DNA of 64,000 bases. Origin: Streptomyces halstedii (GTDB taxonomy: Bacteria; Actinomycetota; Actinomycetes; Streptomycetales; Streptomycetaceae). Made by a program: the position numbers and the translations under genes. The DNA lies in NCBI GenBank assembly GCA_000720535.1, contig JOAZ01000015.1, forward strand, positions 62,001-126,000, written 5' to 3'. Below are positions 6,444 to 63,436 of this stretch, piece by piece. The number at the start of each line of letters is the position of its first letter. The first letter of the stretch is position 1. The notes beneath the pieces were generated by a model. It made no database searches. It saw nothing but the letters and a program-made list of their open reading frames with translations, and was not told the DNA's origin.

Positions 6444-6732
6444 GGTCTCCGGTTCAGGGCACTCGGGTACGTGGGGGCACTGTCGGTACGGGCCGGGAGG
6501 ACCCGTACGCGATACGACAACCGGGCCACCCTACCGGCGCACACGACCGGACCCGGCCCGGACCGGCCGGGGTCCGCCACGGCTGAGACCGGCCTCACAG
6601 AGAGCGGTCCGGGCGGGGCGCCGTCGGCGTGGGCGGGGCCGGTGCCTGGGTGCGGGGGCCCTGCCCACGGGTGGGGCGAGGCCGGTCCACGGGGTCGGGG
6701 CCGGGGCGCGGGCCGGGCGCCGGAGACGGTGC

Positions 6733-8196
6733 CTACGGCGTCACCCGTACCCGGCCGGCCACCCACACCCCCACCGCGGCCACCACCGCCATCGGCAGGA
6801 ACACCGCCGTGAACGCCCCGGGGTGCGATCCGGTCGCGCCGTCCGCCGCCGCCCCGTGCACCGCCGCGCCCACCGTGCCGCCGCCGAGCGCGGCGAACGC
6901 GGCCCCGCCGCCGGTGAGCAGCAACACGTTGGCCAGCCCGTCGGAGATCTGGAGGGCGGCGGAGTTGCCTCCGGCCTCCCCCGGGGCCGACAGCTTCAGC
7001 AGCAGCACACTCGTCGAGGCGATCACCATGCCCATGCCGAAGCAGCCGACCCCCCAGACCGCCGCCAGCGTCCACACCGGCACCGCCTCGATCAGTACGG
7101 CCGGTGCCGCCGCGATGGAGAGGGCCACCAGCACCATGCCGACGACCATCAGGGACTCGCGGTGCGGCTCAAGCCGGGGGCGCGCCAGGACGTACGAGCC
7201 GAGGGCCCAGGTCAGTCCGCCCGCGGCGAGGGACAGCCCGGCCAGGGTCGGGGTCAGTCCGCGCTGGGTCACCAGCATCAGCGGCACGAACGACTCGGCC
7301 GCGATGAACGACCCGGCGGATATCCCGCGCAGCAGGATCACCGCGGGCAGCCCCCGCGTGGCCCGCACCGTCCCCCGGGGCAGCAGCCCGAGCACGGCGG
7401 GCACGAGCAGCGCGGCACCGGCCACGGCGGGCAGCAGCGAGAGCCACCGCAGGTCCTGCCCGGCGTACTGGAGCAGACCCGCTCCCAGCGAGATCCCCAG
7501 AGCGAGCCGGAGCCGCCGCCGGTCGAACGACTGAGCCCCCGCGGCGGCGTCGGCCGGGCCGGACGCCATCCGCCGGATCGCGGGCAGCGCGAGGCCGAGC
7601 GGGAGCAGGATGAGCACCGGGATGCCGACGAAGACCCAGCGCCACCCGAGGTGTTCGGTCACGGTCCCGGCGGCGAGCGGCCCGACGACGGACGGGACGA
7701 TCCAGGCGGCGGAGAACGCGGCCATGATCGCCGGACGGATCCGCTCCGGGTACGCCCGGCTGATGACGACGTACAGCGCCACGATGACGAGGCCGCCGCC
7801 CACGCCCTGGACGGCCCGCCCCAGGATGAACATCCACATGCCGCCCGCCGTCCCGGAGAGCAGCAGCCCGGCGCCGAACGCCCCGATCCCCGAGGCGAGC
7901 GGCGCGAGCGGGCCGTTCCGGTCGGCCCACTGCCCGGAGAGCACCATGGCGAACAGGCTGGTGGTGAAGTACGCGGAGAAGGCGAACGCGTAGAGCGGGA
8001 TACCGTGCAGTTCCCGGGCCGCCACCGGCATCGCCGTACCGACGGCGGTCGCCTCGAAGGCGATGAGCAGCACGACGGAGACGATGCCGACGCTGAGTGC
8101 CCGGTAGGTACGGCCGAGCACGCCCTCAATCGGTGGGGCGGTGGTGTCGACGACGGGGACGGTGACATCGGCGTCACGGGGTTCGAGGGCGCTCAT
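6733..8196 (-). CDS. MFS transporter, drug:H+ antiporter type
   Basis: The 487-residue protein starts at ATG 8196. Multiple hydrophobic segments span the whole protein, beginning with GIVSVVLLIAFEATAVGTAMP, and the MFS signature loop is SGQWADRNGP. The size and the pattern ILGRAVQGVGGG suit the 14-helix DHA2-like or large DHA1 group that exports drugs or toxic metabolites. The last segment (AVVAAVGVWVAGRVRVTP) ends at the C-terminus. It lies upstream of the helicase in the same direction, but 289 GC-rich bases separate them, so an operon is doubtful. No regulator gene is adjacent. The substrate is unknown. Confidence 0.85.
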   Translation of the reverse strand: MSALEPRDADVTVPVVDTTAPPIEGVLGRTYRALSVGIVSVVLLIAFEATAVGTAMPVAARELHGIPLYAFAFSAYFTTSLFAMVLSGQWADRNGPLAPLASGIGAFGAGLLLSGTAGGMWMFILGRAVQGVGGGLVIVALYVVISRAYPERIRPAIMAAFSAAWIVPSVVGPLAAGTVTEHLGWRWVFVGIPVLILLPLGLALPAIRRMASGPADAAAGAQSFDRRRLRLALGISLGAGLLQYAGQDLRWLSLLPAVAGAALLVPAVLGLLPRGTVRATRGLPAVILLRGISAGSFIAAESFVPLMLVTQRGLTPTLAGLSLAAGGLTWALGSYVLARPRLEPHRESLMVVGMVLVALSIAAAPAVLIEAVPVWTLAAVWGVGCFGMGMVIASTSVLLLKLSAPGEAGGNSAALQISDGLANVLLLTGGGAAFAALGGGTVGAAVHGAAADGATGSHPGAFTAVFLPMAVVAAVGVWVAGRVRVTP

Positions 8197-19332: not shown

Positions 19333-20976
19333 TCACACGTTCGGAGGCGGTCCCTCGATCGGGCGACCCAGGATGCCGGGCCGCCGTTGCCACGGGAGCG
19401 GGCCGCCGGGCGGCCGGTAGTCGACACCCAGGGCGTCGAGCCGGGCGTAGTGCTCGCTCATCCGGCGTTCGAAACCGGCGAAGTCCCGCTCGCCGGGGGC
19501 CGGGAGCGGCGACCAGGCCACCTCGGCGAGGGCGGCGAGGCGCGGGAAGACCTGGTAGTCGACGCGGGCCCGGTTCTGCATGACCTCGGTCCAGACGTTG
19601 GCCTGGGTGCCGATGACGTGGGCGGCCGCCTCCTCGGAGAGCTGCGGGGGGACGGGCTCGAAGCGGTAGACGTCCTCCAGGGTGCGTACGTATCCGATGG
19701 GCATCGGCTCGTCGGGGCCGCCGTCCTGGCGGTGGTCCAGATAGACCTGCTGCTCGGGGCACATCACGACGTCGTGCCCGGCCTCGGCCGCCGCGACACC
19801 GCCCGCGTATCCGCGCCACGAGGAGATCGCGGCGCCTTCGGCGAGCCCGCCTTCGAGGATTTCGTCCCAGCCGATGAGACGGCGTCCCCGGGCGGTCAGC
19901 CAGGTGTCGAAGTGCCGGATGAACCAGGACTGGAGCTCGTCCTCGTCACGCAGGCCGAGTTCGGCGATCCGGGCCTGTGCGGCCGGTGACGCCTTCCACT
20001 GGTCCTTGAGGCATTCGTCTCCACCGATATGGATGAACGGCGAGGTGTCGGCGGGGAAGAGTTCGAGCAGCTCCTCGAAGACCCCTTCGAAGAAACGCAG
20101 GGTGGTGTCAGTGGGGGCGAGTACGTTCGGGTTGATGCCCCAGGTGTCCCACACGGAAAGGGTGGAGGTGTCGATGACGTCGGTGTTGCCGAGTTCGGGA
20201 TACGCGCTGATGGCCGCCTGCGAGTGCCCCGGGATGTCGATTTCGGGGACGACCCGGATATGCCGCGCGGCGGCGTAGGCGACGATTTCGCGGATGTCGT
20301 CCTGGGTGTAGAAGCCGCCGTGCGGGGTCTCGTCCCACAGTTCGGAGGCGCGGTGGCCGTATTTGCTGCGGGCCCGCCAGGAGGCGGTCTCGGTGAGCCG
20401 GGGGTGGCGCTTGATCTCGACGCGCCAGCCCTGGTCGTCGGTGAGGTGGAAGTGGAAGACGTTGAGTTTGTGGGCGGCGAGCAGATCGAGGTAGCGCAGG
20501 ACGTCGTCCTTGCGCATGAAGTGCCGTGCGACGTCGAGCATCATGCCGCGCCAGCCGAAGCGCGGGGCGTCCTCGATCTCCAGGAAGGGGACGGGCCGGA
20601 CCTGACCGGAGGCGACGGGCGCCCGCCGGAACGCCTCGGGTCCCAGGAGCTGGCGGAGGGTCTGCGCCCCCCAGAACACCCCGGCGGGGTCCCCTCCGGT
20701 GATCCGCACGCCCGTCCCGGGGGCCACCGTGAGCTGGTAGGCCTCGGGGGCGAGGGCCGGGTCGACGCGCAGCTCGACGGTGTTGCCGGTGGCCTCGTCC
20801 CCGGGGCGCGCGGGCGCGAGGGGCAGTCCGAGGGAGGCGCCGAGGGCGGACCGGAGCCAGCGCTCGGTCGTCCCGGTGCCCGGCCCCGCGAGGAGGGTGG
20901 TGGAGTGGTCCGGGAGGAATCCGGTCCCCTGGTCGTTTCGGCCGACGCGCACGGGCGCCGGAACAAGGTTGTCCAC
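19333..20976 (-). CDS. Beta-N-acetylhexosaminidase, glycoside hydrolase family 20
   Basis: The 547-residue product starts at GTG 20976 with AAAGGA five bases upstream. The small N-terminal GH20b domain is followed by the catalytic TIM barrel: FHFHLTDDQGWRVEIKRHP (174-192), VPEIDIPGHSQAAISAYPEL, and the catalytic Asp-Glu pair in HIGGDECLK (D320, E321) used for substrate-assisted cleavage. There is no signal peptide, so it acts inside the cell on chitobiose or GlcNAc-containing oligosaccharides brought in by the ABC system encoded upstream. It is the last gene of that operon (one base between stop and start regions). This matches the SCO2943-type arrangement as I remember it. Confidence 0.92.
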   Translation of the reverse strand: MDNLVPAPVRVGRNDQGTGFLPDHSTTLLAGPGTGTTERWLRSALGASLGLPLAPARPGDEATGNTVELRVDPALAPEAYQLTVAPGTGVRITGGDPAGVFWGAQTLRQLLGPEAFRRAPVASGQVRPVPFLEIEDAPRFGWRGMMLDVARHFMRKDDVLRYLDLLAAHKLNVFHFHLTDDQGWRVEIKRHPRLTETASWRARSKYGHRASELWDETPHGGFYTQDDIREIVAYAAARHIRVVPEIDIPGHSQAAISAYPELGNTDVIDTSTLSVWDTWGINPNVLAPTDTTLRFFEGVFEELLELFPADTSPFIHIGGDECLKDQWKASPAAQARIAELGLRDEDELQSWFIRHFDTWLTARGRRLIGWDEILEGGLAEGAAISSWRGYAGGVAAAEAGHDVVMCPEQQVYLDHRQDGGPDEPMPIGYVRTLEDVYRFEPVPPQLSEEAAAHVIGTQANVWTEVMQNRARVDYQVFPRLAALAEVAWSPLPAPGERDFAGFERRMSEHYARLDALGVDYRPPGGPLPWQRRPGILGRPIEGPPPNV

Positions 20977-20977
20977 G

Positions 20978-21826
20978 TCAGTCCTTTACCGCTCCGCCCA
21001 GTCCGGAGACCAGACGGCGCTGTACGAGTACGAAGAAGACCAGGACGGGAATGGTCATCACCGTCGAGGCCGCCATGATCCCTCCCCAGTCGTTCTCGTC
21101 GGGTTTGAAGAAGACCAGCAGCGCCATGGGAAGCGTCGACTGGGAGGTGTCACTGATGATGAACGACTTGGCGAACAGGAAGTCGTTCCAGGTCGAGATG
21201 AAGGAGAAGACGCTGGTCGCCACGAGCCCGGGGAAGACGAGCGGGAAGAGGATCTGCCACAGGAAGCGGGTGCGGCTCGCCCCGTCGATGTAGGCGGCCT
21301 CCTCCAGCGCTTCCGGGACGGCCTTGACGAAGCCGCGCAGCATCCAGATCGCGAACGGCAGCGAGAAGGCCAGATGGGGCAGGATCAGCGACCCCAGGGT
21401 GTTCAGCTGGCCGAAGTCCCGCATGAGGAAGAACAGCGGGATGGTGAGGGCCTCGACCGGCACCATCTGGGCCACCAGGAACATGATCAGCAGGGTGGTG
21501 CGGAATCTGAAGCGGAACCGGGTCACGGCCGTCGCGGCGAGAAACGCGATCAGCGCGGAGGCGATGACGACGGTTCCGGCGACGGTCAGGCTGTTGAGGA
21601 AATAGCGCCCGAAGTCCTGTTGTTCGAAGACCCGTCGGAACGAGTCGAGCGACGGTGCCAGGGTCCAGGGCCGGGCCTCGGTGGACTGGATCTCACCGGC
21701 CGGTTTGAACGCGGAGAGCACCATCCAGTACAGCGGGAAGGCGACCGCGGCGGCGATGACGAGTGCGGCCGCCTCCGCCGCCAGCCTGCCGGGCCGGCGG
21801 ACGCGCAGCAGTGTGCGTGTGCTCAC
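20978..21826 (-). CDS. Carbohydrate ABC transporter permease, MalG type
   Basis: The 282-residue product starts at GTG 21826, overlapping the previous stop as GTGA and preceded by GAGGAAC. Six transmembrane segments are visible, from AALVIAAAVAFPLYWMVLS to VMTIPVLVFFVLVQRRL. The cytoplasmic EAA loop (EALEEAAYIDGASRTRFLWQ) contacts the ATPase. It pairs with the MalF-type permease encoded upstream. No ATPase gene lies in the operon, as is usual for Streptomyces sugar importers that share MsiK. Confidence 0.92.
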   Translation of the reverse strand: MSTRTLLRVRRPGRLAAEAAALVIAAAVAFPLYWMVLSAFKPAGEIQSTEARPWTLAPSLDSFRRVFEQQDFGRYFLNSLTVAGTVVIASALIAFLAATAVTRFRFRFRTTLLIMFLVAQMVPVEALTIPLFFLMRDFGQLNTLGSLILPHLAFSLPFAIWMLRGFVKAVPEALEEAAYIDGASRTRFLWQILFPLVFPGLVATSVFSFISTWNDFLFAKSFIISDTSQSTLPMALLVFFKPDENDWGGIMAASTVMTIPVLVFFVLVQRRLVSGLGGAVKD

Positions 21827-22791
21827 AGTTCCTCCCCCTGGCGTCGCACCAGGCGCAGATAGACCAGCGTCACGGCCAGCAGGATCACCAGCATCACGAC
21901 GCCGATGGCCGAGCCGAGGCTGTACTGCGAGGACGCGAACGCCTTCTGGTACGCGTACACGTTGAGCACCAGGTTCTGGCCGGCGATGCCTCCGCCGTTG
22001 GTCATGACATAGATCTGGGTGAAGACCTTGAAGTCCCAGATGATCGACTGGATGGTGACGACGATCAGGATCGGCCGCAGCATCGGGGCCATGACCGACC
22101 GCCAGATCCGCCACTGCGAGGCGCCGTCCAGCGAGGCCGCCTCCAGCACCTCGGTGGGGATGGCGCGGATGCCCGCGTAGACGGTCACCATCACGAACGG
22201 GAACGAGCACCAGAGCACTTCGAGCAGCACCAGGGCGAAGGCGCTGTAACGCCCGTACGTCCAGGAGAAGTCGCCGAGGCCGAGCACTTTGTTGACGGGG
22301 CCGAAGTCCGGGTCGAAGAGGAAGACCCAGACGGTCGAACCGGTGATCGCCGGGGTCGCCCAGGCCCCCAGCGCCGCCATCATCAGGACGAGCCGGGGCA
22401 GGGCCCGGACGCGGGTCAGCAGGACGGCCAGGGCGCAGCCGACGAACAGGGTGGCCAGCACACAGGTGGCCGCGAAGACCACGGTGGCCAGGAGCACCTG
22501 CCAGAACTGGCTGTCCCCGAAGAGGTCCGCGTAGTTGCCGAACCCCACGAAGGTGGTCGGTTCGCCACCGCTGACCTGTGCCTGGGTGTACTCCAGGAAG
22601 GAGATCAGGCCCAGTTGGTAGATCGGGTAGACGAGGAGGCCGCCGAGCGTGACCAGGGCGGGCAGCAGATAGAGCCAGGGGGTCCAGCCGGTGCGCCGGA
22701 GGGGCGACCCCCGGCGCCGGGGCGGGCGGGCCGGCGTGCCGCCCGCCCCGGTCGTCTCGGGGGCCTTGTACGCCGTCGTGTTCGCGGTCAT
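21823..22791 (-). CDS. Carbohydrate ABC transporter permease, MalF type
   Basis: The 322-residue product starts at ATG 22791. An Arg/Pro-rich cytoplasmic head precedes TM1 (WLYLLPALVTLGGLLVYPIY). The EAA loop is PTEVLEAASLDGASQWRIWR, and the last segment ends in RLVRRQGEEL. The normal family length and short TM3-TM4 loop contrast with the enlarged MalF homologue at 58709. It follows the binding-protein gene by two bases and overlaps the next permease by four. Confidence 0.92.
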   Translation of the reverse strand: MTANTTAYKAPETTGAGGTPARPPRRRGSPLRRTGWTPWLYLLPALVTLGGLLVYPIYQLGLISFLEYTQAQVSGGEPTTFVGFGNYADLFGDSQFWQVLLATVVFAATCVLATLFVGCALAVLLTRVRALPRLVLMMAALGAWATPAITGSTVWVFLFDPDFGPVNKVLGLGDFSWTYGRYSAFALVLLEVLWCSFPFVMVTVYAGIRAIPTEVLEAASLDGASQWRIWRSVMAPMLRPILIVVTIQSIIWDFKVFTQIYVMTNGGGIAGQNLVLNVYAYQKAFASSQYSLGSAIGVVMLVILLAVTLVYLRLVRRQGEEL

Positions 22792-22793
22792 CG

Positions 22794-24098
22794 TCAGCCC
22801 GCGTCGGCGAACGCCGCGTCCATCTTCTTCGCCGCGTCGTCGGAGGCCGTGGCGACGTCCTTACGGCCGCTGGCGATCTCCTGGAACATCGTCGGAAGGA
22901 TCAGCGAGGCGTCGATCTGGCCCCAGGCCGGGGACGCCGGGACGAACTTGGCGCCCGCGCCGAGGGTGTTGACGAACGGCTCGACGAAGGGCTCCTTCTT
23001 CGCGACCGTGTCCCGCACGTCGGTGTAGGTCGGCAGGAAGCCCATCGCGTCGAACATCTCGGCCTGGGTCTTCTTGCCGGTGAGCTGCTTCATCAGATCG
23101 ACGGCCAGGGTGCGGTGCGCGCTGCTCTTGAGCACACCGATGTTGTTGCCACCCGCGAACGCCGGGGCGATCGAGCCCTTCTCCACGCCGGGCAGCGGGA
23201 CGACCGCGTACTTGCCCTTGACGGAGCCCTCCTCGACGGCGGCGTGGCTGAAGTCGCCGCCGATCGCCATGGCCGCCTTGCCCGAGGCGAAGGCGGTGAC
23301 GGTGGCGTTGCCGCCCATGGCCGCGCACTTGGCGGCGGGGCAGTTGTCGTCGCCGAAGAGCGAGGTGTAGGCCTTGATGCCCTTGCGGGCCTTCTCGCTG
23401 TTGATGGCCGCCTCGTAGGTCACCCCGGTCTCGTCGGCGAGTTCGCCGCCGTGCGCCCAGATGAAGGGCATCGCGCCGTAGGTGTAGGCGCCGCCGACCG
23501 CGAGGCCGTAGAGGTCCGGCTTCTCCTTGTGGACCTTCTTCGCGGTGGCGATCAGCTCGTCCTGGGACTTGGGCGGCTCGATGCCCAGGTCCTCGAAGAC
23601 GTCGGTGCGGTAGTACAGGGCCCGCACGCCGACGAAGAGCGGCGCGCCGTAGACCTTGCCGCCGACCGTCACGGACTGCTTGGCCGCCGGGTCGGTGTCC
23701 TTGGCCTCGTCCCAGGCGGCGAACGCGTCGCTGATGTCGGCGAGTCCGCCGTCCTTCACGTATCCGGCGGTGTCGGTGTTGCCGTACTCGATGAGGTCGG
23801 GGGCGCTCTTCGGGTCGTTGAAGGCTGCCTTGATCCGCTCGGCGCGGGTGTCGACCGGTATGTACTCGATCTTGACCTTCGCTCCTTCGTGGGACTTCTC
23901 GAAGGCGGCGACGGCCGCGTCGACGACCTTCTCCTTGGGCTTGTTGCCGACCTCCTGGAAGAGCCAGACGCGAAGCGTGCCGCTCTTGTCGTCCGACGTG
24001 GCGTCGGTGTCGGAGGTCCCCGGCGCGCAGGCGGTGGCGGTGAGCCCCGCCAGCACGAGGGCGGCGGCAGGCGCGGCAATTCGGGCAGAAAGCTTCAT
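22794..24098 (-). CDS. Sugar ABC transporter substrate-binding lipoprotein, probably for chito-oligosaccharides
   Basis: The 434-residue product starts at ATG 24098. Its signal peptide MKLSARIAAPAAALVLAGLT ends in a lipobox (TATAC), and a Ser/Thr/Asp linker follows. The mature family 1 solute-binding fold starts at GTLRVWLFQEVGNKPKEKVV, with PDLIEYGNTDTAGYV, YGAPLFVGVRALYYRTDVF and the C-terminal FPASP-like FVPASPAWGQIDA. The operon context (two permeases and an intracellular hexosaminidase) and the DasR-like site upstream argue for GlcNAc or chitobiose-type sugars, as with DasA and NgcE. The exact ligand is not shown by the sequence. Confidence 0.88.
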   Translation of the reverse strand: MKLSARIAAPAAALVLAGLTATACAPGTSDTDATSDDKSGTLRVWLFQEVGNKPKEKVVDAAVAAFEKSHEGAKVKIEYIPVDTRAERIKAAFNDPKSAPDLIEYGNTDTAGYVKDGGLADISDAFAAWDEAKDTDPAAKQSVTVGGKVYGAPLFVGVRALYYRTDVFEDLGIEPPKSQDELIATAKKVHKEKPDLYGLAVGGAYTYGAMPFIWAHGGELADETGVTYEAAINSEKARKGIKAYTSLFGDDNCPAAKCAAMGGNATVTAFASGKAAMAIGGDFSHAAVEEGSVKGKYAVVPLPGVEKGSIAPAFAGGNNIGVLKSSAHRTLAVDLMKQLTGKKTQAEMFDAMGFLPTYTDVRDTVAKKEPFVEPFVNTLGAGAKFVPASPAWGQIDASLILPTMFQEIASGRKDVATASDDAAKKMDAAFADAG

Positions 24099-53447: not shown

Positions 53448-53735
53448 GGAAGACGCGGAGACCGGGGAAATGGTTGCCGGACCTGTGTGCGGTGCCTCCG
53501 AAGCGGGACCAAGCGGGCACTTTTGCACCCACACTCGGCCATTCATGATCACTAAGCGGTCACCCCCGGGCGTGTTGTCAGTGGCAGGTGGGAGGATGCC
53601 TCCAGCACGGAGCTGTGAGGCCGGGCCTTGCGCTCCGTGACGACCTGTACCGGACGACGCGTCCGTGCCGGGTGGGGGGAATCACAGGGCATCTCCCCTG
53701 CCGGGCGCCCCGCGCAGAAGGGACCGCTGACGGCG

Positions 53736-56700
53736 ATGCAGATCCGGCTGACCGTCCTCGCGCCGCGCAGCGGCCAGACCCCGCCACGCGCCTGCGACGT
53801 GCTCGTCACCGCCCCCGCGGGGACCTCGCTCGCCGCCGTCGCGTCGAACCTCGCCGCCGCCGTGACCGGGCCGGAGGGCTCCCAGAGCGGCGGTGCCGTC
53901 GTGCTGTACGCCGGACGCGAGCGCCTGGACGCCCAGCGCTGCGCCCTCGGCGAACCGCCCCTGGTGGACGGCGCGGTGCTCTGCCTCCAGGCACCCGGCG
54001 AGGACGAGGGCGCGGACGACGCCGTCCCCGCGCGACTCCACGTCGTCGCCGGGCCGGACGCCGGCGGGGTCCACCTGCTGCACGGCGGCCCGGTCCGCGT
54101 CGGCCGCTCCGCCGAGGCGGACGTCCCGCTCGACGACCCGGACGTGTCCCGGCTGCACTGCGCGGTGACGGTCTCCGAGGACGGCCGGGTCTCGGTCGCC
54201 GACCTCGGTTCCACCAACGGCACCTCGCTGGACGGCGCACCGGTCCACGACCGCCCGGTCCGGCTCGCCCCGGGGGCCCTGCTGCGGCTCGGCGAATCGA
54301 CGCTCCGGCTCACCACGGGCCGCCGCGCACCGGCGCTCACGACCACCCCGGACGGCGAGGGCCACCTCCGGGTGGCCCGGAACCCGGGCGCCACCGCCCC
54401 CGCGGGGGATCCCGACGACGACCGCGCCCACACCTTCGGCACCCCCCACCCCGGCGGCCACGATCCGTACGGGGCGTACGGCGAGCGCCCGGCGGGCCAC
54501 GACGAGACCCGGCGCGCGAGCGGCGCGGCCGCCGAGCATCCCACCCATGGACGCGGCGCCCCGCTCACCCCCGAGGAGGCCCCCCGGCGCGGCGGCATAG
54601 GAGCCTGGGCGCGGCGGCTGACCGGCGGCCGGGCCGAAGGCCCCCACGGACCGGCCGGGCAGCACCCCGGCGCGGGCCCGGAGGACGGTGCCGAGGGCGC
54701 CCCCGCGTACGCCGGGCCCGACCGTTCCCCGGCCGCCCCCGAGGGGACCTGGCCCGACCCGGCGGCCGTCCTGCTCACCGCGCTGGGACCCGGTCCCCGG
54801 CTGTGGGAGCGCGACCCCGGACACCCGGAGACGCTGGTCGTCCGCCTGGGCACCACCGACCGGGCCGATCTGCCCGCCGTGCCGGTCACCGTGGGACTGC
54901 GGGAGGCCGGGTCGCTCGGGCTCGCCGGGCCGCGCACCCGGCTCTCCGGCCTGGCCCGCTCCACCGTGGCGCAGCTCGCCGCCCTGCACTCGCCGTTCGA
55001 CCTGGAGATCGTGCTGATCAGCACGGACCGCGCGCGCGGCGTGGAGGAGCGGCGGCGCGAGTGGTCCTGGCTCGGCTGGCTGCCGCACCTGCGCCCGCTG
55101 CACGGCCAGGACTGCCGGCTGCTGCTGGCCTTCGACCGGGAGCAGGCCGACGCCCGCGCCGCGGAGCTGGTCCGCCGCATGGGCGACGGGCCGCTGGGCC
55201 CCGGCTGGGCCGGCGCCGACGGACCGGCGGTGGCCGGGGCCGCCCGCGCGCACACCGGCCCGTTCACGGTGGTCGTGCTGGACGGCGACCCCGGCTCCGC
55301 CGCGCTGCGCGAGACCATGGCCGGGCTGGCCTGGGCCGGCGCGGCCTCGGGCATCCACCTGGTCTGCCTGGCCGAGACCCCGGCCGCCTCCCCCACCTCT
55401 CCGGTGGACGCCACGTACGACACCGCGTGCCGGGTCTCGATCCCGTTCCGCGAGTGCGGCGCGGTCGCGATGCTGAGCGGGGACGTGGCGACCGCGTTGC
55501 GGCTGCTGCGCACGACGGGCGGCCAGGTCGCGGGACACGGCACCGTCGCGACGGTGGACGCGGTGTCGGCGGCCTGGGCCGAGCGGTTCGGACGGGCGCT
55601 GGCGCCCCTGCGCGACGCGGGCGCGCTCACGGGACGGCCGGTGGCGGCGGCGCTGCCCCCGTCGGCCCGGCTCCTGGACGAGCTGGGTCTGGCCCGTGCC
55701 ACCCCGGCGTCCCTGATGGCCCGCTGGGCGTCGACGGCGGAGGACCAGCCGGGCGCTACGGTCCGCGCGGCAGCCGTGTCCGGGGACCTGGAGACCTCCG
55801 GCTCCGGCCGCACGCCGAACGCCGGCGCCCGCGTGGGGGCGCAGCGCGAGTCCCCCGAGTCCGGCCGCCCCGCCGGACACGCTCCGGGGGCGGGACCGGA
55901 TCACGCCGGCACCGGGCACCCCGGCCGCACCGGCTCCGTCCGTACCGACAGCGGGTCCTCCGCCTGTTCCGGCGAGCCCTGCCCCGGCGGTCCCTACCCC
56001 GGCGGCGGGCCCACCCGTTCGGGGCCGGGGCGGTCCTCCTATCCGTCCGCCACCGCCGTACCCGCGCAGCGCCGGGCCGCCGCGCCGCCGGGTGCCTCCC
56101 ACGCCGGGCGGCCCGTGGTCGTGCTCGGAGCCGGGCCCCGGGGCCCCCTCTCCGTCGATCTGACCGAGGAGGGACCCCATCTGCTGATCGAGGGGCCCCA
56201 GGGCAGCGGCCGTACGGAACTGCTGCGGGCGATCGCCGCCTCCCTGGCGTCCGCGGACCGCCCCGACCGCCTCGGCATCCTGCTGATCGACGGAGGGGGA
56301 CGCGACGGTCTGCGCCCCTGCACGGAGCTGCCGCACGTCTTCACGCACCTGGTCGCCTCGGACCCCGTACGGATGCGGGAGTGCGCCCAGGCACTCGGCG
56401 GTGAGCTGAAGCGCCGCGCGGAGCTGCTGGGCGGCCTGGACTTCGCCACCTGGCACGCGCGGTACGAGGAGGCGCGGGCGCTCCCGGGCGGCAGGCGCCC
56501 CTTCGGTCCCGGTGACCGGCGTGGCGACCTCGACTCCCCGGCCAGCAGCACCCTGCGGCTGCGGCCCGCCGCCCCGCCGGCTGATCCCGGCCCCTCCCCG
56601 CTGCCCCGGATCGTCGTCCTGGCCGACGACTTCGACGCCCTGGTCGCCCCGGCGCTCGGCAGCCCCGGCCGCCCGTCCGCCGGGTCCGTCGTGCGGGTGC

Positions 56701-57128
56701 TGGAGGCCGTGGCCAGGGACGGGGAGCGGCTGGGTGTCCATCTGGTCGCCACGTCCGCCCGCCCGGACCGCACCGAGGACACCGAGCTGGCCCGCGGGGC
56801 CCGGCTGCGCATCGTGCTGGACCCGCCCGTCGTCCCCCCGTCGCCCGACGAGGTGGCTCCGGGACGGGGCAGGCTGGGGCATCCGGACGGCCGGGTGACC
56901 CCCTTCCAGGGCGGCCGGGTCACCGGCCGGATCCCGCGTACGGCGACCCTGCGCCCCACCGTCGTCCCGCTGGAGTGGGAGCGGATGGGGGATCCGCCCG
57001 CCCGGCGTCCGGTCCGCGAGCTGGGCAACGGCCCCACCGATCTCGCGCTGCTGGCCAGCGCCCTGGAGCGGGCGGCCCGCTCGGTCAACGCCGAGCGGCT
57101 GCCCCCGCTGGTCCCGTCGCCGACCTGA
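53736..57128 (+). CDS. FHA-domain protein with FtsK/SpoIIIE-like (EccC-like) ATPase region
   Basis: From ATG 53736 the product has 1130 residues. Residues 1-95 form a ubiquitin-like/YukD-like lead. The FHA domain has RVGRS (121-125), SRLHC (138-142) and STNGT (159-163), the phospho-threonine contacts. A disordered stretch follows, then an FtsK-like region, and later another disordered linker (about 690-785). A P-loop-like GPQGSGRT (820-827) and a Walker B-like IVVLADDFD (959-967) follow. The usual P-loop Lys is Arg, so ATPase activity is doubtful. The layout recalls FHA-FtsK proteins linked to type VII secretion. It is divergent from pkaA. The opposite strand is open over its whole length, which is a high-GC shadow. 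Confidence 0.82.
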   Translation: MQIRLTVLAPRSGQTPPRACDVLVTAPAGTSLAAVASNLAAAVTGPEGSQSGGAVVLYAGRERLDAQRCALGEPPLVDGAVLCLQAPGEDEGADDAVPARLHVVAGPDAGGVHLLHGGPVRVGRSAEADVPLDDPDVSRLHCAVTVSEDGRVSVADLGSTNGTSLDGAPVHDRPVRLAPGALLRLGESTLRLTTGRRAPALTTTPDGEGHLRVARNPGATAPAGDPDDDRAHTFGTPHPGGHDPYGAYGERPAGHDETRRASGAAAEHPTHGRGAPLTPEEAPRRGGIGAWARRLTGGRAEGPHGPAGQHPGAGPEDGAEGAPAYAGPDRSPAAPEGTWPDPAAVLLTALGPGPRLWERDPGHPETLVVRLGTTDRADLPAVPVTVGLREAGSLGLAGPRTRLSGLARSTVAQLAALHSPFDLEIVLISTDRARGVEERRREWSWLGWLPHLRPLHGQDCRLLLAFDREQADARAAELVRRMGDGPLGPGWAGADGPAVAGAARAHTGPFTVVVLDGDPGSAALRETMAGLAWAGAASGIHLVCLAETPAASPTSPVDATYDTACRVSIPFRECGAVAMLSGDVATALRLLRTTGGQVAGHGTVATVDAVSAAWAERFGRALAPLRDAGALTGRPVAAALPPSARLLDELGLARATPASLMARWASTAEDQPGATVRAAAVSGDLETSGSGRTPNAGARVGAQRESPESGRPAGHAPGAGPDHAGTGHPGRTGSVRTDSGSSACSGEPCPGGPYPGGGPTRSGPGRSSYPSATAVPAQRRAAAPPGASHAGRPVVVLGAGPRGPLSVDLTEEGPHLLIEGPQGSGRTELLRAIAASLASADRPDRLGILLIDGGGRDGLRPCTELPHVFTHLVASDPVRMRECAQALGGELKRRAELLGGLDFATWHARYEEARALPGGRRPFGPGDRRGDLDSPASSTLRLRPAAPPADPGPSPLPRIVVLADDFDALVAPALGSPGRPSAGSVVRVLEAVARDGERLGVHLVATSARPDRTEDTELARGARLRIVLDPPVVPPSPDEVAPGRGRLGHPDGRVTPFQGGRVTGRIPRTATLRPTVVPLEWERMGDPPARRPVRELGNGPTDLALLASALERAARSVNAERLPPLVPSPT

Positions 57129-57245: not shown

Positions 57246-57307
57246 GACGTGAACCGCGCGATGTGAGACGTGAACCGGCACCACGGGTCCCCCGTCGGTG
57301 CCGGTTC
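57246..57307 (+). promoter_or_regulatory. Direct repeat and leader hairpin upstream of the second sugar ABC operon
   Basis: GACGTGAACC occurs at 57246-57255 and 57267-57276, exactly 21 bases apart (two helical turns). It is followed by a hairpin: GAACCGGCACC (57272-57282) with 57297-57307 and inner ACGGG/CCCGT around a 3-base loop. The hairpin ends 32 bases before the start codon. Confidence 0.5.
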
Positions 57308-57339
57308 GCGCACACGCGCGCAGGAGAAACGGGGCAGGA

Positions 57340-58704
57340 ATGCGCACAACCCCTCGCATGCGTAGGGCAGCAGTGGTGTTCACCGCGGTCGGGGCGCTGG
57401 CCCTCACCGGTTGCGGTGGCGGCGACGACGGCAAGGACTCCGCGGACAAGAGCTCCGGCAAGGAGAAGGAGAGCACGTCGACCGTCGACCTGCCGAAGCT
57501 CGACGGTGAGCAGATATCCGTCGCGGCGGTGTGGACCGGGCCCGAGCAGGCCAACTTCACGAAGGTGCTGGGCGAGTTCGAGAAGCGCACCGGCGCCAAG
57601 GTCACCTTCGTCCCCGCCCAGGACCCCATCGTGAACTTCCTGGGGACGAAGATCGCGGGCGGCCAGCCGCCGGACGTGGCGATGATCCCCCAGGTCGGCG
57701 CCATCCAGCAGGCCGTGGCCAAGAAGTGGGCGAAGCCCGTCGGCAACGAGGCGCGGGCCCAGCTGGGCCAGAACTACGCGCAGGTCTGGCAGGACCTCGG
57801 CGCGGTGGACGGCACCCAGTACGGCGTCTACTTCAAGGCCGCCAACAAGTCCCTGATCTGGTACAACGCCCAGGCGTTCGAGAACGCGGGCGCGAGCGAG
57901 CCGAAGACCTGGAAGGACTTCCTGAACACGGCCGAGACGGTCTCCGCCTCCGGGGTCACCCCGGTCTCGGTCGGCGGCGCGGACGGCTGGACGCTCACCG
58001 ACTGGTTCGAGAACATCTACCTCTCCCAGGCGGGCCCGGAGAAGTACGACCAGCTGGCCAAGCACGAGATCAAGTGGACGGACCCGTCCGTCAAGGACGC
58101 GCTGACCACCCTCGCCGAGCTGTTCGGCAAGCCGAACCTGATCGCGGGCGGCGCCGACGGGGCGTTGCAGACCGAGTTCCCGACCTCCGTCACCCAGACG
58201 TTCACCGGAGGCGACCAGCCCAAGGCCGCCATGGTGTTCGAGGGCGACTTCGTCTCGGTCAACATCGCGCAGACCGAGGCCAAGATCGGTACGGACGCCA
58301 AGGTGTTCCCGTTCCCGGCGGTCGGCGCCGACTCCCCCGTGGTGACGGGCGGCGACGCCGCCGTGGCGCTGAAGGACACCAAGGGCGCGCAGGCGCTCCT
58401 GACCTGGCTCGCCTCGACGGACGCGGCGAAGATCTGGGCCGAGGCGGGCGGTTTCATCTCGCCCAACAAGTCGCTGGACGCGGCCGCCTACCCGAACGAG
58501 GTACAGCGCACGATGGCCCAGGCGCTGATCGACGCCGGTGACGACGTCCGGTTCGACATGTCCGACCAGGCCCCGCAGTCGTTCGGCGGGACGCCCGGCA
58601 AGGGCGAGTGGAAGACCCTCCAGGACTTCCTGAAGAACCCGAAGGACATCGCGGGGACCCAGGCGAAACTGGAGTCCGACGCGGCCAAGGCGTACAAGAG
58701 CTGA
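57340..58704 (+). CDS. Sugar ABC transporter substrate-binding lipoprotein
   Basis: From ATG 57340 the product has 454 residues; ATG 57358 is an alternative. The signal peptide (RRAAVVFTAVGALAL) ends in the lipobox LTGC. A charged linker follows, then a family 1 solute-binding fold: VAAVWTGPEQANFTKVLGEF, VTFVPAQDPIVNFLGTKIAG, PDVAMIPQVGAIQQ and AMVFEGDFVSVNIAQ. It is the first of three genes with two permeases and no ATPase. The sugar is unknown; the binding cleft shows W and Y residues typical for di- or oligosaccharides. The operon is followed by a teichoic-acid-type transferase gene. Confidence 0.9.
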   Translation: MRTTPRMRRAAVVFTAVGALALTGCGGGDDGKDSADKSSGKEKESTSTVDLPKLDGEQISVAAVWTGPEQANFTKVLGEFEKRTGAKVTFVPAQDPIVNFLGTKIAGGQPPDVAMIPQVGAIQQAVAKKWAKPVGNEARAQLGQNYAQVWQDLGAVDGTQYGVYFKAANKSLIWYNAQAFENAGASEPKTWKDFLNTAETVSASGVTPVSVGGADGWTLTDWFENIYLSQAGPEKYDQLAKHEIKWTDPSVKDALTTLAELFGKPNLIAGGADGALQTEFPTSVTQTFTGGDQPKAAMVFEGDFVSVNIAQTEAKIGTDAKVFPFPAVGADSPVVTGGDAAVALKDTKGAQALLTWLASTDAAKIWAEAGGFISPNKSLDAAAYPNEVQRTMAQALIDAGDDVRFDMSDQAPQSFGGTPGKGEWKTLQDFLKNPKDIAGTQAKLESDAAKAYKS

Positions 58705-58708
58705 CGGG

Positions 58709-60067
58709 ATGACGACAGCGACAGCGGGGGGCGCCCCGGCGGCGCCCCCCGCCGACAAACGTCCCGGCAGGCGCCGCGGCGTCACCGGCACCCGCGGGAC
58801 GGTGGCGGCGCTCTTCCTGCTGCCGGCCCTGGTGCTGCTCGGCGCCCTCGTCGTCTATCCGATCGGGTACTCCGTCTACCGGTCCTTCTTCGACCAGGCG
58901 GGTACCGGGTTCGCCGGCTTCGACAACTACACGGCGCTGTTCTCCGACGAGACCATCCGCACGGCGGTGAAGAACAACGCGATCTGGGTCGTGTTCGCCC
59001 CGACGGTCGCCACCGCGCTGGGGCTGATCTTCGCGGTGCTGACCGAGCGGATCCGGTGGGGCACGGCGTTCAAGCTGGTCGTCTTCATGCCGATGGCGAT
59101 CTCGATGCTGGCCGCAGGCATCATCTTCCGGCTGGTGTACGACCAGGCTCCGGAGCGCGGGGTCGCCAACGCGGTGGTGGTCGGCGTGCACGACACGTTC
59201 GCCGAGTCGTCGGGCTTCCCGAAGGCGCACCCGCTGCCGGTCCATCCGCTGGAGGCGGGCGGCGACGGCTCGTTCGTCACGAAGGAGCCGGCGCGGGCGG
59301 GCGAGCCGGTCCTGCTGCCCCTGGTCGGGGTGGCCCCCGCCAAGATGCCCGCCGACGCGCGGCCGGCCGAGGCCGCCTCCCCGTCCGCGGACGGGAAGAT
59401 CACCGGCACCGCCTGGCTGGACTTCACCCGGGGCGGCGGCGGCAAGCCCAACGTCGTCGACCCGGAGGAGCTCGGTCTCAAGGGCATCCGGGTCGAGGCC
59501 GTCCGGGACGGCGAGGTCGTCGCCACGGCCACGGCGGGCGCGGACGGGGTGTTCACGCTGCCCGCCTCCGCCGACGGGGCCCTGATCCGGCTTCCGGAGG
59601 CGAACTTCCACGAGCCGTACCACGGCGTGGACTGGCTCGGCCCGACCCTGGTGACGCCCGCGATCATCGGCAGTTACGTCTGGATGTGGGCGGGCTTCGC
59701 CATGGTGCTGATCGCGGCGGGCCTGGCCGGGCTGCCGCGTGAACTCCTGGAAGCCGCACGGGTGGACGGTGCCAACGAGTGGCAGGTGTTCCGCCGGATC
59801 ACCGTGCCCATGCTGGCCCCGGTCCTGGCGGTGGTGCTGGTCACCCTGATGATCAACGTACTGAAGGTCTTCGACCTGGTCTTCATCATCGCGCCGGGCT
59901 CCTCCCAGGACGACGCGAACGTCCTGGCGCTCCAGCTCTACCGGTCCTCGTTCGGCACGGACGCCGATCTCGGGATCGGCAGCGCGATCGCCGTCCTCCT
60001 CCTGCTGCTGGTGGTTCCGATGATGCTCGTCAACATCCGCCGGATACGGAAGGAGGGGCGCCGATGA
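58709..60067 (+). CDS. MalF-type sugar ABC permease with a large extracytoplasmic Ig-like insert
   Basis: The 452-residue product starts at ATG 58709. TM1 is TVAALFLLPALVLLGALVVY; TM2 and TM3 lie at about 92-112 and 122-143. Instead of the usual short loop, residues 150-310 form an insert. Its middle (GKITGTAWLDFTRGGGGKPN, then GLKGIRVEAVRDGEVVATAT and ADGVFTLPASADGALIRLPE) reads as an SdrD-B/CarboxypepD-regulatory-like beta sandwich. TM4 follows (IIGSYVWMWAGFAMVLIAAG), then the EAA loop LPRELLEAARVDGANEWQVF and TM5-6. The insert is on the outer face, at the position of the P2 loop of E. coli MalF that touches the binding protein. It overlaps the next gene by four bases. Confidence 0.9.
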   Translation: MTTATAGGAPAAPPADKRPGRRRGVTGTRGTVAALFLLPALVLLGALVVYPIGYSVYRSFFDQAGTGFAGFDNYTALFSDETIRTAVKNNAIWVVFAPTVATALGLIFAVLTERIRWGTAFKLVVFMPMAISMLAAGIIFRLVYDQAPERGVANAVVVGVHDTFAESSGFPKAHPLPVHPLEAGGDGSFVTKEPARAGEPVLLPLVGVAPAKMPADARPAEAASPSADGKITGTAWLDFTRGGGGKPNVVDPEELGLKGIRVEAVRDGEVVATATAGADGVFTLPASADGALIRLPEANFHEPYHGVDWLGPTLVTPAIIGSYVWMWAGFAMVLIAAGLAGLPRELLEAARVDGANEWQVFRRITVPMLAPVLAVVLVTLMINVLKVFDLVFIIAPGSSQDDANVLALQLYRSSFGTDADLGIGSAIAVLLLLLVVPMMLVNIRRIRKEGRR

Positions 60068-60978
60068 CCACGACCGAACCGGTCAGGACCGCGGCCGCCG
60101 TCGGTGGCGCCGCGCCGGCGAAGCCACGGCCGCCGCTGGCCGCCCGGATCGCCGCGCGGGCGGGCGGCGGGGTGATGCGGGTCGTCCTCGTCCTGGTCGC
60201 CCTGTTCTGGCTGATGCCGACCATCGGCCTGCTGCTGTCCTCGCTGCGCAGTTCGGAGAACATCGCGGCGACGGGCTGGTGGAAGGTGTTCACCGCTCCC
60301 TCGGAGCTCACCTTCGACAACTACCAGCGCCTGCTGGACAATTCGGCGATCACCGATTCGCTGGTCAGCACCCTCCTGATCACCGTCCCGGCCACCTTCC
60401 TGGTGGTGGTGCTCGGCTCGTTCGCCGGGTACGCCTTCGCCTGGATGGAGTTCCCCGGCCGGGACTGGTGGTTCCTGGTGGTCGTCGGGCTGCTCGTCGT
60501 GCCCGTCCAGGTGGCGTTGATCCCGGTCTCCGAACTCTTCGGCGCCATCGGGATCTTCGAGACCACCGTCGGGGTGATCCTCTTCCACACGGCGTTCGGC
60601 CTGCCGTTCGCCATCTTCCTGCTGCGGAACTTCTTCGCGGAGATCCCGCGCGAACTGCTGGAGGCCGCGCGGCTCGACGGCGCGGGCGAGATCCGGCTGT
60701 TCACCCGCGTCGTGATGCCGCTGGGCGGTCCCGCGATCGCCTCGCTCGGCATCTTCCAGTTCCTCTGGGTGTGGAACGACATGCTGGTCGCGCTGATCTT
60801 CGCGGACTCGGGGTCGCCGCCGATCACCGTCGCCCTCCAGCAGCAGGTCCGGCAGTTCGGCAACAACATCGACGTGCTGGCACCCGGCGCCTTCGTGTCG
60901 ATGGTGATCCCGCTGGCGGTCTTCTTCGCCTTCCAGCGGCAGTTCGTCTCCGGGGTGATGGCCGGGGCCGTCAAGTGA
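60064..60978 (+). CDS. MalG-type sugar ABC permease
   Basis: The 304-residue product starts at ATG 60064, overlapping the previous stop (ATGA). A basic cytoplasmic head precedes TM1 (VVLVLVALFWLMPTIGLLLS). The EAA loop is IPRELLEAARLDGAGEIRLF, and the family ending FAFQRQFVSGVMAGAVK is present. Six TM segments are visible and the length is ordinary, without the insert of its partner. It needs an ATPase encoded elsewhere. Confidence 0.93.
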   Translation: MTTTEPVRTAAAVGGAAPAKPRPPLAARIAARAGGGVMRVVLVLVALFWLMPTIGLLLSSLRSSENIAATGWWKVFTAPSELTFDNYQRLLDNSAITDSLVSTLLITVPATFLVVVLGSFAGYAFAWMEFPGRDWWFLVVVGLLVVPVQVALIPVSELFGAIGIFETTVGVILFHTAFGLPFAIFLLRNFFAEIPRELLEAARLDGAGEIRLFTRVVMPLGGPAIASLGIFQFLWVWNDMLVALIFADSGSPPITVALQQQVRQFGNNIDVLAPGAFVSMVIPLAVFFAFQRQFVSGVMAGAVK

Positions 60979-61201: not shown

Positions 61202-63436
61202 GTGCCCCGGTTCAGTGTCATCGTGCCCGCGTACCGGGTCCAGGCGTATCTGCACGCGTGTCTCGACTCCGTGCTGAACCAGTCGTTCAAGGACTACGAG
61301 ATCATCGTGGTCGACGACTGCTCACCGGACGCCTGCGGCTCGATCGCCGACGAGTACGCGGCGCGCGACCCCCGGGTCGGCGTCGTCCACCTCCCCCGCA
61401 ACGAGGGCCTCGGGCCCGCCCGCAACGCCGGTCTGTCCCGGGCCGTCGGGGACTACCTGCTCTTCCTCGACGGTGACGACACCTTCACCCCCGAGGCGCT
61501 CCAGACCATCGCCGACCGTCTGGAGACCACCGGCGGCCCCGACGTCCTCGTCTACGACTACGCCCGCACCTACTGGTCCGGCGAGAGCGTCCGCAACACC
61601 TTCGCCCGGTGCCTGGCCGAGAACGGACCGGCCTCCTTCCGGCTGGCGGACCGGCCCGAACTGCTCAAGGTCCTCATGGTCGTCTGGAACAAGGCCTACC
61701 GGCGGGAGTTCGTCGAGGCGGAAGGGTTCACCTTCCCGCCCGGCTACTACGAGGACACCCCCTGGACCTACCCCGTCCTGATGTCCGCCGGGTCGATCGC
61801 CGTCCTGGACGCCGTCTGCGTCGCCTACCGCCAGCGCCGCCGGGGCAACATCCTCTCCACCACCACCCGCCGGCACTTCGACGTCTTCGACCAGTACGAC
61901 CGCGTGTTCGCCTTCATCGACGCCCGGCCCGAACTCGCCGTCTGGCGACCCGTGATGTTCCGCCGGATGCTCGACCACTTCTCGACCCTGTTCACCTCGC
62001 GCGGCCGCCTCCCCCGGGGCACCCGGGCGCAGTTCTTCCGCCGCGCCCGCGCCCACTGCGCCCGCCACCGCTCCCCCGGCGCGGCCGTACCGCGCCGCGC
62101 CCGGCTGCGGCACGCGCTGTTCCGGCTGGGCGCCCACCGCACGTACCGCACCCTGTGGGCCGGCCAGCGGGTGTACCGGGGGGTGCGGCAGGCCGCCACG
62201 GCAGCCCGCCGGGCCGTGCGCGCGGCCGCCCTCCAGCTCCACTACCGCCTCCAGCTGTGCCTGCCGCTGCGGCCCGCCGAGGCGGTGTTCGCCGCGTACT
62301 GGAACCGCGGCTACACCTGTAGCCCCGCCGCCCTGGAGGCCACCGCGCGCGCCCTCGTCCCGGGGCTGCGCACCACGTGGATCTGCCGCCCCGAGGACGC
62401 GCACACCGTCCCCGGCGCCACCCGGGTGGTGCACCCGGGGACGGCGGCGTACTGGACGGCCCTGGCGCGCTCCCGGTACCTCGTCAACAACGTCAACTTC
62501 GACCGGCGGCTGGTCAAGAGGCGCGGTCAGATCATGGTGCAGACCCACCACGGCACCCCCCTGAAGACCATGGGGACCGACCTCGTGCACCGGCCCGCCG
62601 CGGCCGGGACCATGGACTTCGGCCAGCTCCTGCGCAACATCGACAAGTGGGACTTCTCGCTCTCCGCCAACCAGCACTCCACCCTGGTGTGGGAGCGCAC
62701 CTACCCCTCCCGGTACACCACGCTGGAGTACGGCAGCCCGCGCAACGACGTCTTCCACCGCACCCGCCCCGAGGAGATCGCCCGGCTGCGCGCGCGGCTG
62801 GCCGTCCCCGAGGGCAGCACGGCCCTGCTGTACGCCCCCACCCACCGCGACTACCGGCGCGGCCCCCACCACCCGCTGGACCTGGAGCAGTTCGTCCGGG
62901 TGCTCGGCCCCCGCTTCGTGGTCCTGGTCCGCTCCCACTACCTCGACACGACGTCCCGGGCCACGGCCGGACGCGCCCCGCACCCGCAGATCATCGACGT
63001 CGGCGACCACCCGTCCGTGGAGGAGCTCTGCCTCGCCTCGGACGCGCTGGTCACGGACTACTCCTCGCTGATGTTCGACTACGTCAACCTGGACCGCCCC
63101 GTCGTCCTGTTCCTGGAGGACCGGCAGGCGTACGAGGCGGCCCGCGGCACGTACTTCGACCTGGAGGCGTTCCCGCCCGGCGCGGTCTCCCGCAGCCAGG
63201 AGGAGCTGCACGAGATCTTCGCGACCGACCACTGGCGCGGCCCCCGCTCGGCCCAGCGCCGGGCCGCGTTCCGGGCCCGGTTCTGCCCGTACGACGACGG
63301 GCACGCGGCGGAGCGGGTGGTGCGCCGGGTGTTCCTCGGCGACACGTCGGGGCTGCCGCTGCCGGTCTCCTCGGGCGGCCGGCGGCCCTCCGGGGTGCCC
63401 CGGCAGGTGACCGTGCGGGAGTACACCAACGGGTGA
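61202..63436 (+). CDS. Bifunctional family 2 glycosyltransferase / CDP-glycerol glycerophosphotransferase (TagB/TagF-like)
   Basis: The 744-residue product starts at GTG 61202. The N-terminal GT2 domain has FSVIVPAYRVQAYLHACLDS, IIVVDDCSPDACGSIADEYA, RNEGLGPARNAGL and YLLFLDGDD. A basic helical linker (residues 270-360) is followed by a TagF-like domain: VNNVNFDRRLVKRRGQIMVQ-THHGTPLKTMG, LEYGSPRNDVFH, LLYAPTHRDYRRG, VVLVRSHYLD, then VGDHPSVEELCLASDALVTD-YSSLMFDY. These catalytic blocks transfer polyol phosphate from a CDP-polyol to a lipid-linked acceptor. The fusion is used for teichoic-acid-type polymers on the inner membrane face. S. coelicolor has related genes at this place (SCO2981 onward), from memory. 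Confidence 0.9.
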   Translation: MPRFSVIVPAYRVQAYLHACLDSVLNQSFKDYEIIVVDDCSPDACGSIADEYAARDPRVGVVHLPRNEGLGPARNAGLSRAVGDYLLFLDGDDTFTPEALQTIADRLETTGGPDVLVYDYARTYWSGESVRNTFARCLAENGPASFRLADRPELLKVLMVVWNKAYRREFVEAEGFTFPPGYYEDTPWTYPVLMSAGSIAVLDAVCVAYRQRRRGNILSTTTRRHFDVFDQYDRVFAFIDARPELAVWRPVMFRRMLDHFSTLFTSRGRLPRGTRAQFFRRARAHCARHRSPGAAVPRRARLRHALFRLGAHRTYRTLWAGQRVYRGVRQAATAARRAVRAAALQLHYRLQLCLPLRPAEAVFAAYWNRGYTCSPAALEATARALVPGLRTTWICRPEDAHTVPGATRVVHPGTAAYWTALARSRYLVNNVNFDRRLVKRRGQIMVQTHHGTPLKTMGTDLVHRPAAAGTMDFGQLLRNIDKWDFSLSANQHSTLVWERTYPSRYTTLEYGSPRNDVFHRTRPEEIARLRARLAVPEGSTALLYAPTHRDYRRGPHHPLDLEQFVRVLGPRFVVLVRSHYLDTTSRATAGRAPHPQIIDVGDHPSVEELCLASDALVTDYSSLMFDYVNLDRPVVLFLEDRQAYEAARGTYFDLEAFPPGAVSRSQEELHEIFATDHWRGPRSAQRRAAFRARFCPYDDGHAAERVVRRVFLGDTSGLPLPVSSGGRRPSGVPRQVTVREYTNG

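Follow-up and report, generated by a model that had tools for sequence, protein, structure and literature searches.

What role might a folded domain of about 160 residues play in an outer loop of a sugar permease that is in other respects of an ordinary type? The question is raised by PF, a gene on the forward strand (58709..60067) of a stretch of 64,000 nucleotides from Streptomyces halstedii (contig JOAZ01000015.1, positions 62,001 to 126,000), which is referred to as the window. PF is an open reading frame (ORF) of 452 amino acids with an ATG start, flanked by the genes of a solute-binding protein (SBP) and of a second permease, PG. A Pfam search assigned residues 306-436 to BPD_transp_1 (E 1.5e-19, 70.8 bits against a cut-off of 26.4), and by its sequence the protein is classed as a MalF-type ATP-binding cassette (ABC) permease of type I (CUT1); it fails the MalF equivalog model NF008232 (58.8 bits, curated cut-off 392). 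The AlphaFold2 (AF2) model contains six long helices (residues 26-58, 81-112, 117-144, 308-340, 357-394 and 422-451). The first three, placed by the model and by alignment to SugA and MalF, correspond to transmembrane helices TM1-TM3 of the core (residues 26-146, 58784..59146, + strand). The second part of the core, TM4-TM6 (residues 308-451, 59630..60061, + strand), carries BPD_transp_1, a further helix at 344-352 and the EAA coupling loop EAARVDGANEWQVFRR, which is conserved.

The two parts of the core are separated by the insert, which fills the TM3-TM4 loop of the AF2 model (residues 147-307, about 160 amino acids, 59147..59629, + strand) and contains 13 K/R, 21 D/E and no cysteine. Actinobacterial MalF homologues usually have a short loop at this place. 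In the permease at 21823 of the window (row L004), which the preliminary description of this DNA had used as its comparator, the loop is indeed only 15 amino acids long, and loops of 15-25 amino acids were found in seven insert-less permeases extracted from the same genome. At 17 other MalF-type permease loci of this genome, where both halves of PF were matched, the gap between the N- and C-terminal pieces is only 9-135 nt, which leaves no room for the insert at any of them; another 14 rows match one part of PF only. In SugA of the mycobacterial LpqY-SugABC transporter, about 30 residues (139-169) stand where PF has about 175 (144-319).

The insert is predicted with high confidence to be a folded β domain. 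In the AF2 model, a short helix (152-164) is followed by β strands from about residue 181, eight of them of at least three residues. In the models of PF and of the insert alone, block means of the predicted local distance difference test (pLDDT) amount to 89-98 across residues 170-300, apart from drops to 75 and 72; the insert modelled alone has a mean pLDDT of 85.6, and over most of the ordered region its block means are 90-98, falling once to 72. Its second half (residues 229-303, 59393..59617, + strand) appears to be SdrD-B/CnaB (transthyretin)-like, as judged from domain matches in the family, a profile match in the PDB and the models. This assignment, proposed earlier as SdrD-B/carboxypeptidase-regulatory, is clear for the family and weak for the window protein alone, in which CarboxypepD_reg (PF13620) was matched below its cut-off (E 0.058) and SdrD_B (PF17210) was not reported at E<=1. 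Among 16 homologous inserts, CarboxypepD_reg was found in 15 and SdrD_B in 13 at E<=0.1 (best 1.3e-10). Five of seven whole homologues pass the SdrD_B cut-off of 29.7 bits (L123, 37.8; L085, 34.1; L126, 33.2; L096, 30.9; L118, 30.4), and two remain under it (L125, 27; L109, 26.1). The insert profile matched Staphylococcus aureus SdrD in the PDB (10ps_A, E 2.6e-16); the window insert searched by itself against PDB sequences gave no match, and neither did Foldseek with the insert at E<=0.001. Acidic positions of the B-repeat loop are retained in all of 45 inserts (D238, D/E251, E254), as are W236, F239, G243-G245, G280, F300, G306 and W309, so that D238 and E254 also belong to the invariant residues. 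The middle N/D residues of the SdrD loop are replaced by a GGG stretch in the alignment, and PF has a single copy of the domain, within a membrane permease loop.

The order of the helices and the charge pattern place the insert outside the cell: the N- and C-terminal segments of PF are rich in K/R, and in the insert 13 K/R stand against 21 D/E. Together with the domain matches across the family and the model, these features bear out the part of the preliminary description that saw in PF a MalF-type permease with a folded, extracytoplasmic, SdrD-B-like insert; with block means of 89-98 over residues 170-300, the domain is predicted neither to be disordered nor to lie inside the cell.

The same description had placed the insert at the position of the P2 domain of Escherichia coli MalF, the permease of MalFGK2. 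MalF belongs to the same superfamily and is likewise a type I permease of the CUT1 kind, with a large folded outer domain in one loop; it has eight helices, two of them extra and N-terminal, as compared with the six core helices of PF. In a phmmer alignment of PF to MalF (2r6g_F), residues 30-77 were paired with 61-108, 67-147 with 257-343, and 311-447 with 364-510; the first of these stretches scores below zero alone, so the TM1 match rests on the order of the stretches. With a profile of 47 permeases only the C-terminal part was aligned (query 294-447, MalF 335-511). PMC3150292 gives MalF P2 as residues 91-271 (legend of Figure 3). From these alignments P2 lies between core TM1 and TM2, equivalent to the short TM1-TM2 loop of PF (residues 59-80, approximately), and the insert maps between MalF 343 and 364, in core TM3-TM4. 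A location at the P2 position is thus ruled out, and the claim had named the wrong loop; the likeness in size that it noted does hold (about 160 against 181 residues), in a different loop. Homology to P2 is also ruled out, since a comparison of the profile of 45 inserts with the P2 sequence gave an hhalign probability of 0.3% (E 0.21); the two domains have no detectable sequence kinship. The confusion is explained by the two extra N-terminal helices of MalF, which shift the numbering, and by the fact that the TM3-TM4 loop of six-helix permeases is also called P2. An instance of that usage is PotB, in PMC11414716.

Is the insert a peculiarity of one genome? Whole-genome sampling covered Actinomycetota and Chloroflexota. 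Within the genus, 149 of 150 genomes match PF at E<=1e-40, and among the matches listed every row starts at query residue 28 or before and ends at 448 or beyond. In the family, 87 of the 121 genomes sampled match, as do 13 of the 17 genera (E<=1e-60, a few by fragments); in the class, 69 of 394 genomes match (40 of them from the genus itself). In a sample of the phylum, 43 of 396 genomes match at E<=1e-30. The match extends into the insert in 25 of these (12 from the genus and 13 from elsewhere, including G384, truncated by a contig end, and G261, which looks broken) and is limited to the C-terminal half in the remaining 18. Among 301 genomes from the phylum of a Chloroflexi locus there are 62 matches, six with the insert and, in the rows listed, 56 only outside it. 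A scan of named genomes with the pattern WRDF[KRT]PGG, which by design passes over inserts of the window's type, gave 51 loci. Going by record titles, 25 are from Thermoleophilia (Solirubrobacter-, Conexibacter- and Gaiella-type titles being taken by us as such), 23 are given only as Actinobacteria, Actinomycetota or Actinomycetes, two are from Chloroflexi and one is from Bifidobacterium breve. Relatives covering at least 80% of the query were also found in 11 plasmid records (ten Streptomyces, one Nonomuraea); nine of these relatives are annotated, as ordinary permeases. Beyond the genus, insert-bearing orthologues therefore occur in further genera of the class, in Thermoleophilia and among some Chloroflexota, which rules out a peculiarity of this genome. 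The insert is present in most members of the orthologous clade and not in MalF-type permeases at large. Two records stand apart: the permease of L083, the metagenome-assembled genome (MAG) titled Bifidobacterium breve, groups with a Solirubrobacteraceae row, and the record is probably mislabelled; at L116/L062 (G261) a copy of the gene set has its permease split over frames and looks broken or mis-sequenced.

A tree was built from the core alone (258 columns) of 68 chosen permeases, 43 with and 25 without the insert (three pairs are core-identical, leaving 65 different rows). The TM3-TM4 loop measures 155-170 amino acids in all 43 insert rows and 15-25 in all 25 others, and the 43 form one side of a single branch (support in the SH-like approximate likelihood ratio test 100), so that one state change suffices. 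The tree was made by a quick method with a midpoint root and has several long outgroup branches, and the direction, gain or loss, depends on the root; it fits a single ancient gain, followed by descent, with transfer or loss in between. The closest insert-less relatives, from Chloroflexota and small-genome Actinomycetota, belong to the same permease subfamily and adjoin the insert clade, with loops of 20-25 residues. In 29 within-genus pairs, the median ratio of non-synonymous to synonymous differences (pN/pS) was 0.36 and 0.35 for the two halves of the insert, 0.145 for the membrane core and 0.75 for the N-terminal tail. The insert is under purifying selection and is less constrained than the core. 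A chance or frame-shifted ORF is ruled out by these ratios together with the matches in 149 of 150 genomes. The insert domain is accordingly real, old and conserved. No description of it was found in the open literature, most subscription journals lying outside the coverage of that search; it is so far undescribed there, and its carriers are annotated as ordinary permeases.

As to what the domain does, we propose that in a CUT1-type sugar importer made of SBP, PF and PG, PF gained an SdrD-B/transthyretin-like domain in its outer core TM3-TM4 loop. The domain would stand out on the external side, next to the SBP dock, and would act in transporter assembly, as a brace over PF and PG, as a seat for the SBP, or both, rather than in catalysis or inside the cell. 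We regard such a role in assembly on the outer face as an even call. The two forms of it can be told apart to some extent by a distance-correlation test, in which insert distances were compared with those of each partner, the others being controlled for, in 39 gene sets with three complete proteins taken from the 51 loci and the window. Insert residuals correlate with those of PG (r 0.37, 0 of 2000 permutations as high) and show no clear correlation with those of the SBP (r 0.09, 337/2000); PG and SBP residuals correlate with each other (r 0.33, 2/2000). When PG was divided, r 0.29 was obtained both for its outer loops (1/2000) and for the rest of it (17/2000). Omission of the window and L113 gave 0.39 for the PG outer loops, 0.29 for the rest of PG and 0.05 for the SBP (544/2000). 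The SBP genes of L097 and L102 have their two halves in different frames; without these two (37 rows) the values were 0.12 for the SBP (220/2000), 0.335 for PG (6/2000), 0.30 for its outer loops (1/2000) and 0.30 for the rest (16/2000). The test speaks mildly against a P2-like dock for the SBP and for contact with PG, and slightly favours bracing against PG over contact with the SBP. Against this stands that the matrix correlations are weak and that PG may simply track the tree best.

The docking role suggested in the preliminary description thus gains no support from the residuals. In that reading, the insert would have evolved independently, in another loop, to do the work of MalF P2 and dock the lipid-anchored SBP. 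It lies on the outer face, is folded and has a constant SBP partner, as the reading requires. Docking domains of this kind do exist in the family: in PMC3150292 and PMC8134467, simulations are described in which MalF P2 touches MalE and moves as a rigid body. The insert, however, is not at the P2 site, has no profile similarity to P2 and shows no clear residual correlation with the SBP in any of the three versions of the test (r 0.09, 0.12 and 0.05), and we consider the analogy unlikely. It is correspondingly doubtful that type I importers solved SBP docking a second time, independently, through an SdrD-B-like graft kept in one clade across Actinomycetota and Chloroflexota. Less probable still is that the domain binds glycan or cell wall and so holds the transporter close to polysaccharide or peptidoglycan. 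SdrD-B and CarboxypepD_reg domains are common in surface proteins, a β-helix protein is encoded downstream in 6 of 13 loci, and a GH13 gene stands beside a related gene set; yet SdrD B repeats are spacers rather than binders, and the set is kept without a constant enzyme neighbour. At least as improbable is passive decoration, that is, an old insertion tolerated in a free outer loop with no role beyond folding. The insert does evolve faster than the core, both in pN/pS and in mean distance (0.87 against 0.42), but no insert-less row occurs within the insert clade of the 68-row tree, every listed match from the genus extends through the insert, residues such as W236, D238 and F239 are invariant, and its pN/pS lies well under that of the N-terminal tail.

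The preferred role in assembly would have consequences in either form: a dock for the SBP would mean that docking on this permease fold can make use of more than one loop, and a brace on PG would be a new way to stabilise the outer gate. Outside E. coli, few structures show how an importer holds and positions its SBP. An importer that occurs in nearly every sampled genome of its genus and has an additional outer domain in a loop that MalF does not use offers a clean test case: there are insert-less sister permeases to compare it with, and the domain is of a size that can be deleted or purified.

The SBP gene of the window (57298..58704, + strand; SBP_bac_1, Pfam E 4.6e-26) opens at GTG, and the ATG at 57340 is the likelier start. 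Its product is a predicted lipoprotein with a lipobox-like site (LTGC), in agreement with the lipid anchor assumed earlier. Across the family, a lipobox was scored in 31 of 44 partner SBPs by one crude rule and in 24 of 39 by another. The 13 misses of the former comprise six ambiguous cases and seven actinobacterial loci (L082, L085, L088, L089, L097, L099 and L107) whose SBPs have a signal peptide and apparently no lipobox cysteine; L081 scored under the latter rule. The idea that the insert, as a docking domain, replaces the lipid anchor failed its control: by the same crude rule only 6 of 30 SBP loci in those seven genomes, partner SBPs included, scored as lipoproteins. In this control several rows were truncated or out of frame, and some of the six look spurious. 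Most SBP loci of these genomes likewise appear to have no lipobox, and its lack seems to characterise the genomes rather than this gene set.

PG, the partner MalG-type permease (304 amino acids, 60064..60978, + strand; BPD_transp_1 E 9.4e-14), overlaps PF by 4 nt and has no large insert. The order SBP-PF-PG is conserved: SBP relatives were found in 48 of the 51 insert-permease loci, sharing 42-56% identity with the SBP of the window in their main pieces, and PG relatives downstream of PF in 50 (mostly 51-64% identical); the misses fall at contig ends. A MalK-type ATPase gene lies directly upstream of the SBP gene in L093, L109 and L072, all three of the loci in which this position was scanned; in L113, a Chloroflexi locus, the scan upstream found an amidohydrolase gene. 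No ATPase gene adjoins the set in the window, and two OB_MalK ATPases above cut-off are encoded elsewhere in the genome, so a MalK/MsiK-type ATPase is likely to be shared. A related SBP-PF-PG set found on Streptomyces plasmids comes directly after a gene of glycoside hydrolase family 13 (GH13), which hints that the substrate is probably an α-glucoside-type oligosaccharide. No sugar-breakdown enzyme is encoded beside the set in the window. Directly upstream of the SBP gene lies that of an FHA and FtsK/SpoIIIE protein (1166 amino acids, 53628-57128, + strand), and downstream of the set that of a family 2 glycosyltransferase fused to a CDP-glycerol:poly(glycerophosphate) glycerophosphotransferase domain, a teichoic-acid type enzyme (61202-63436, + strand).

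The comparator permease at 21823 adjoins genes for an SBP and a GH20 hexosaminidase (19333-24098, − strand), probably a separate operon for amino-sugar uptake. In the 13 loci where the gene downstream of the permeases was scanned, the six parallel β-helix proteins are located at L072:12827-14065, L085:12357-14057, L089:12344-14044, L109:11445-13316, L110:11091-13340 and L115:10739-12199. In L093, from a Solirubrobacteraceae MAG, a protein-arginine deiminase family protein (PAD, PAD_M; 4981-6969, − strand) is encoded divergently from the transporter genes.
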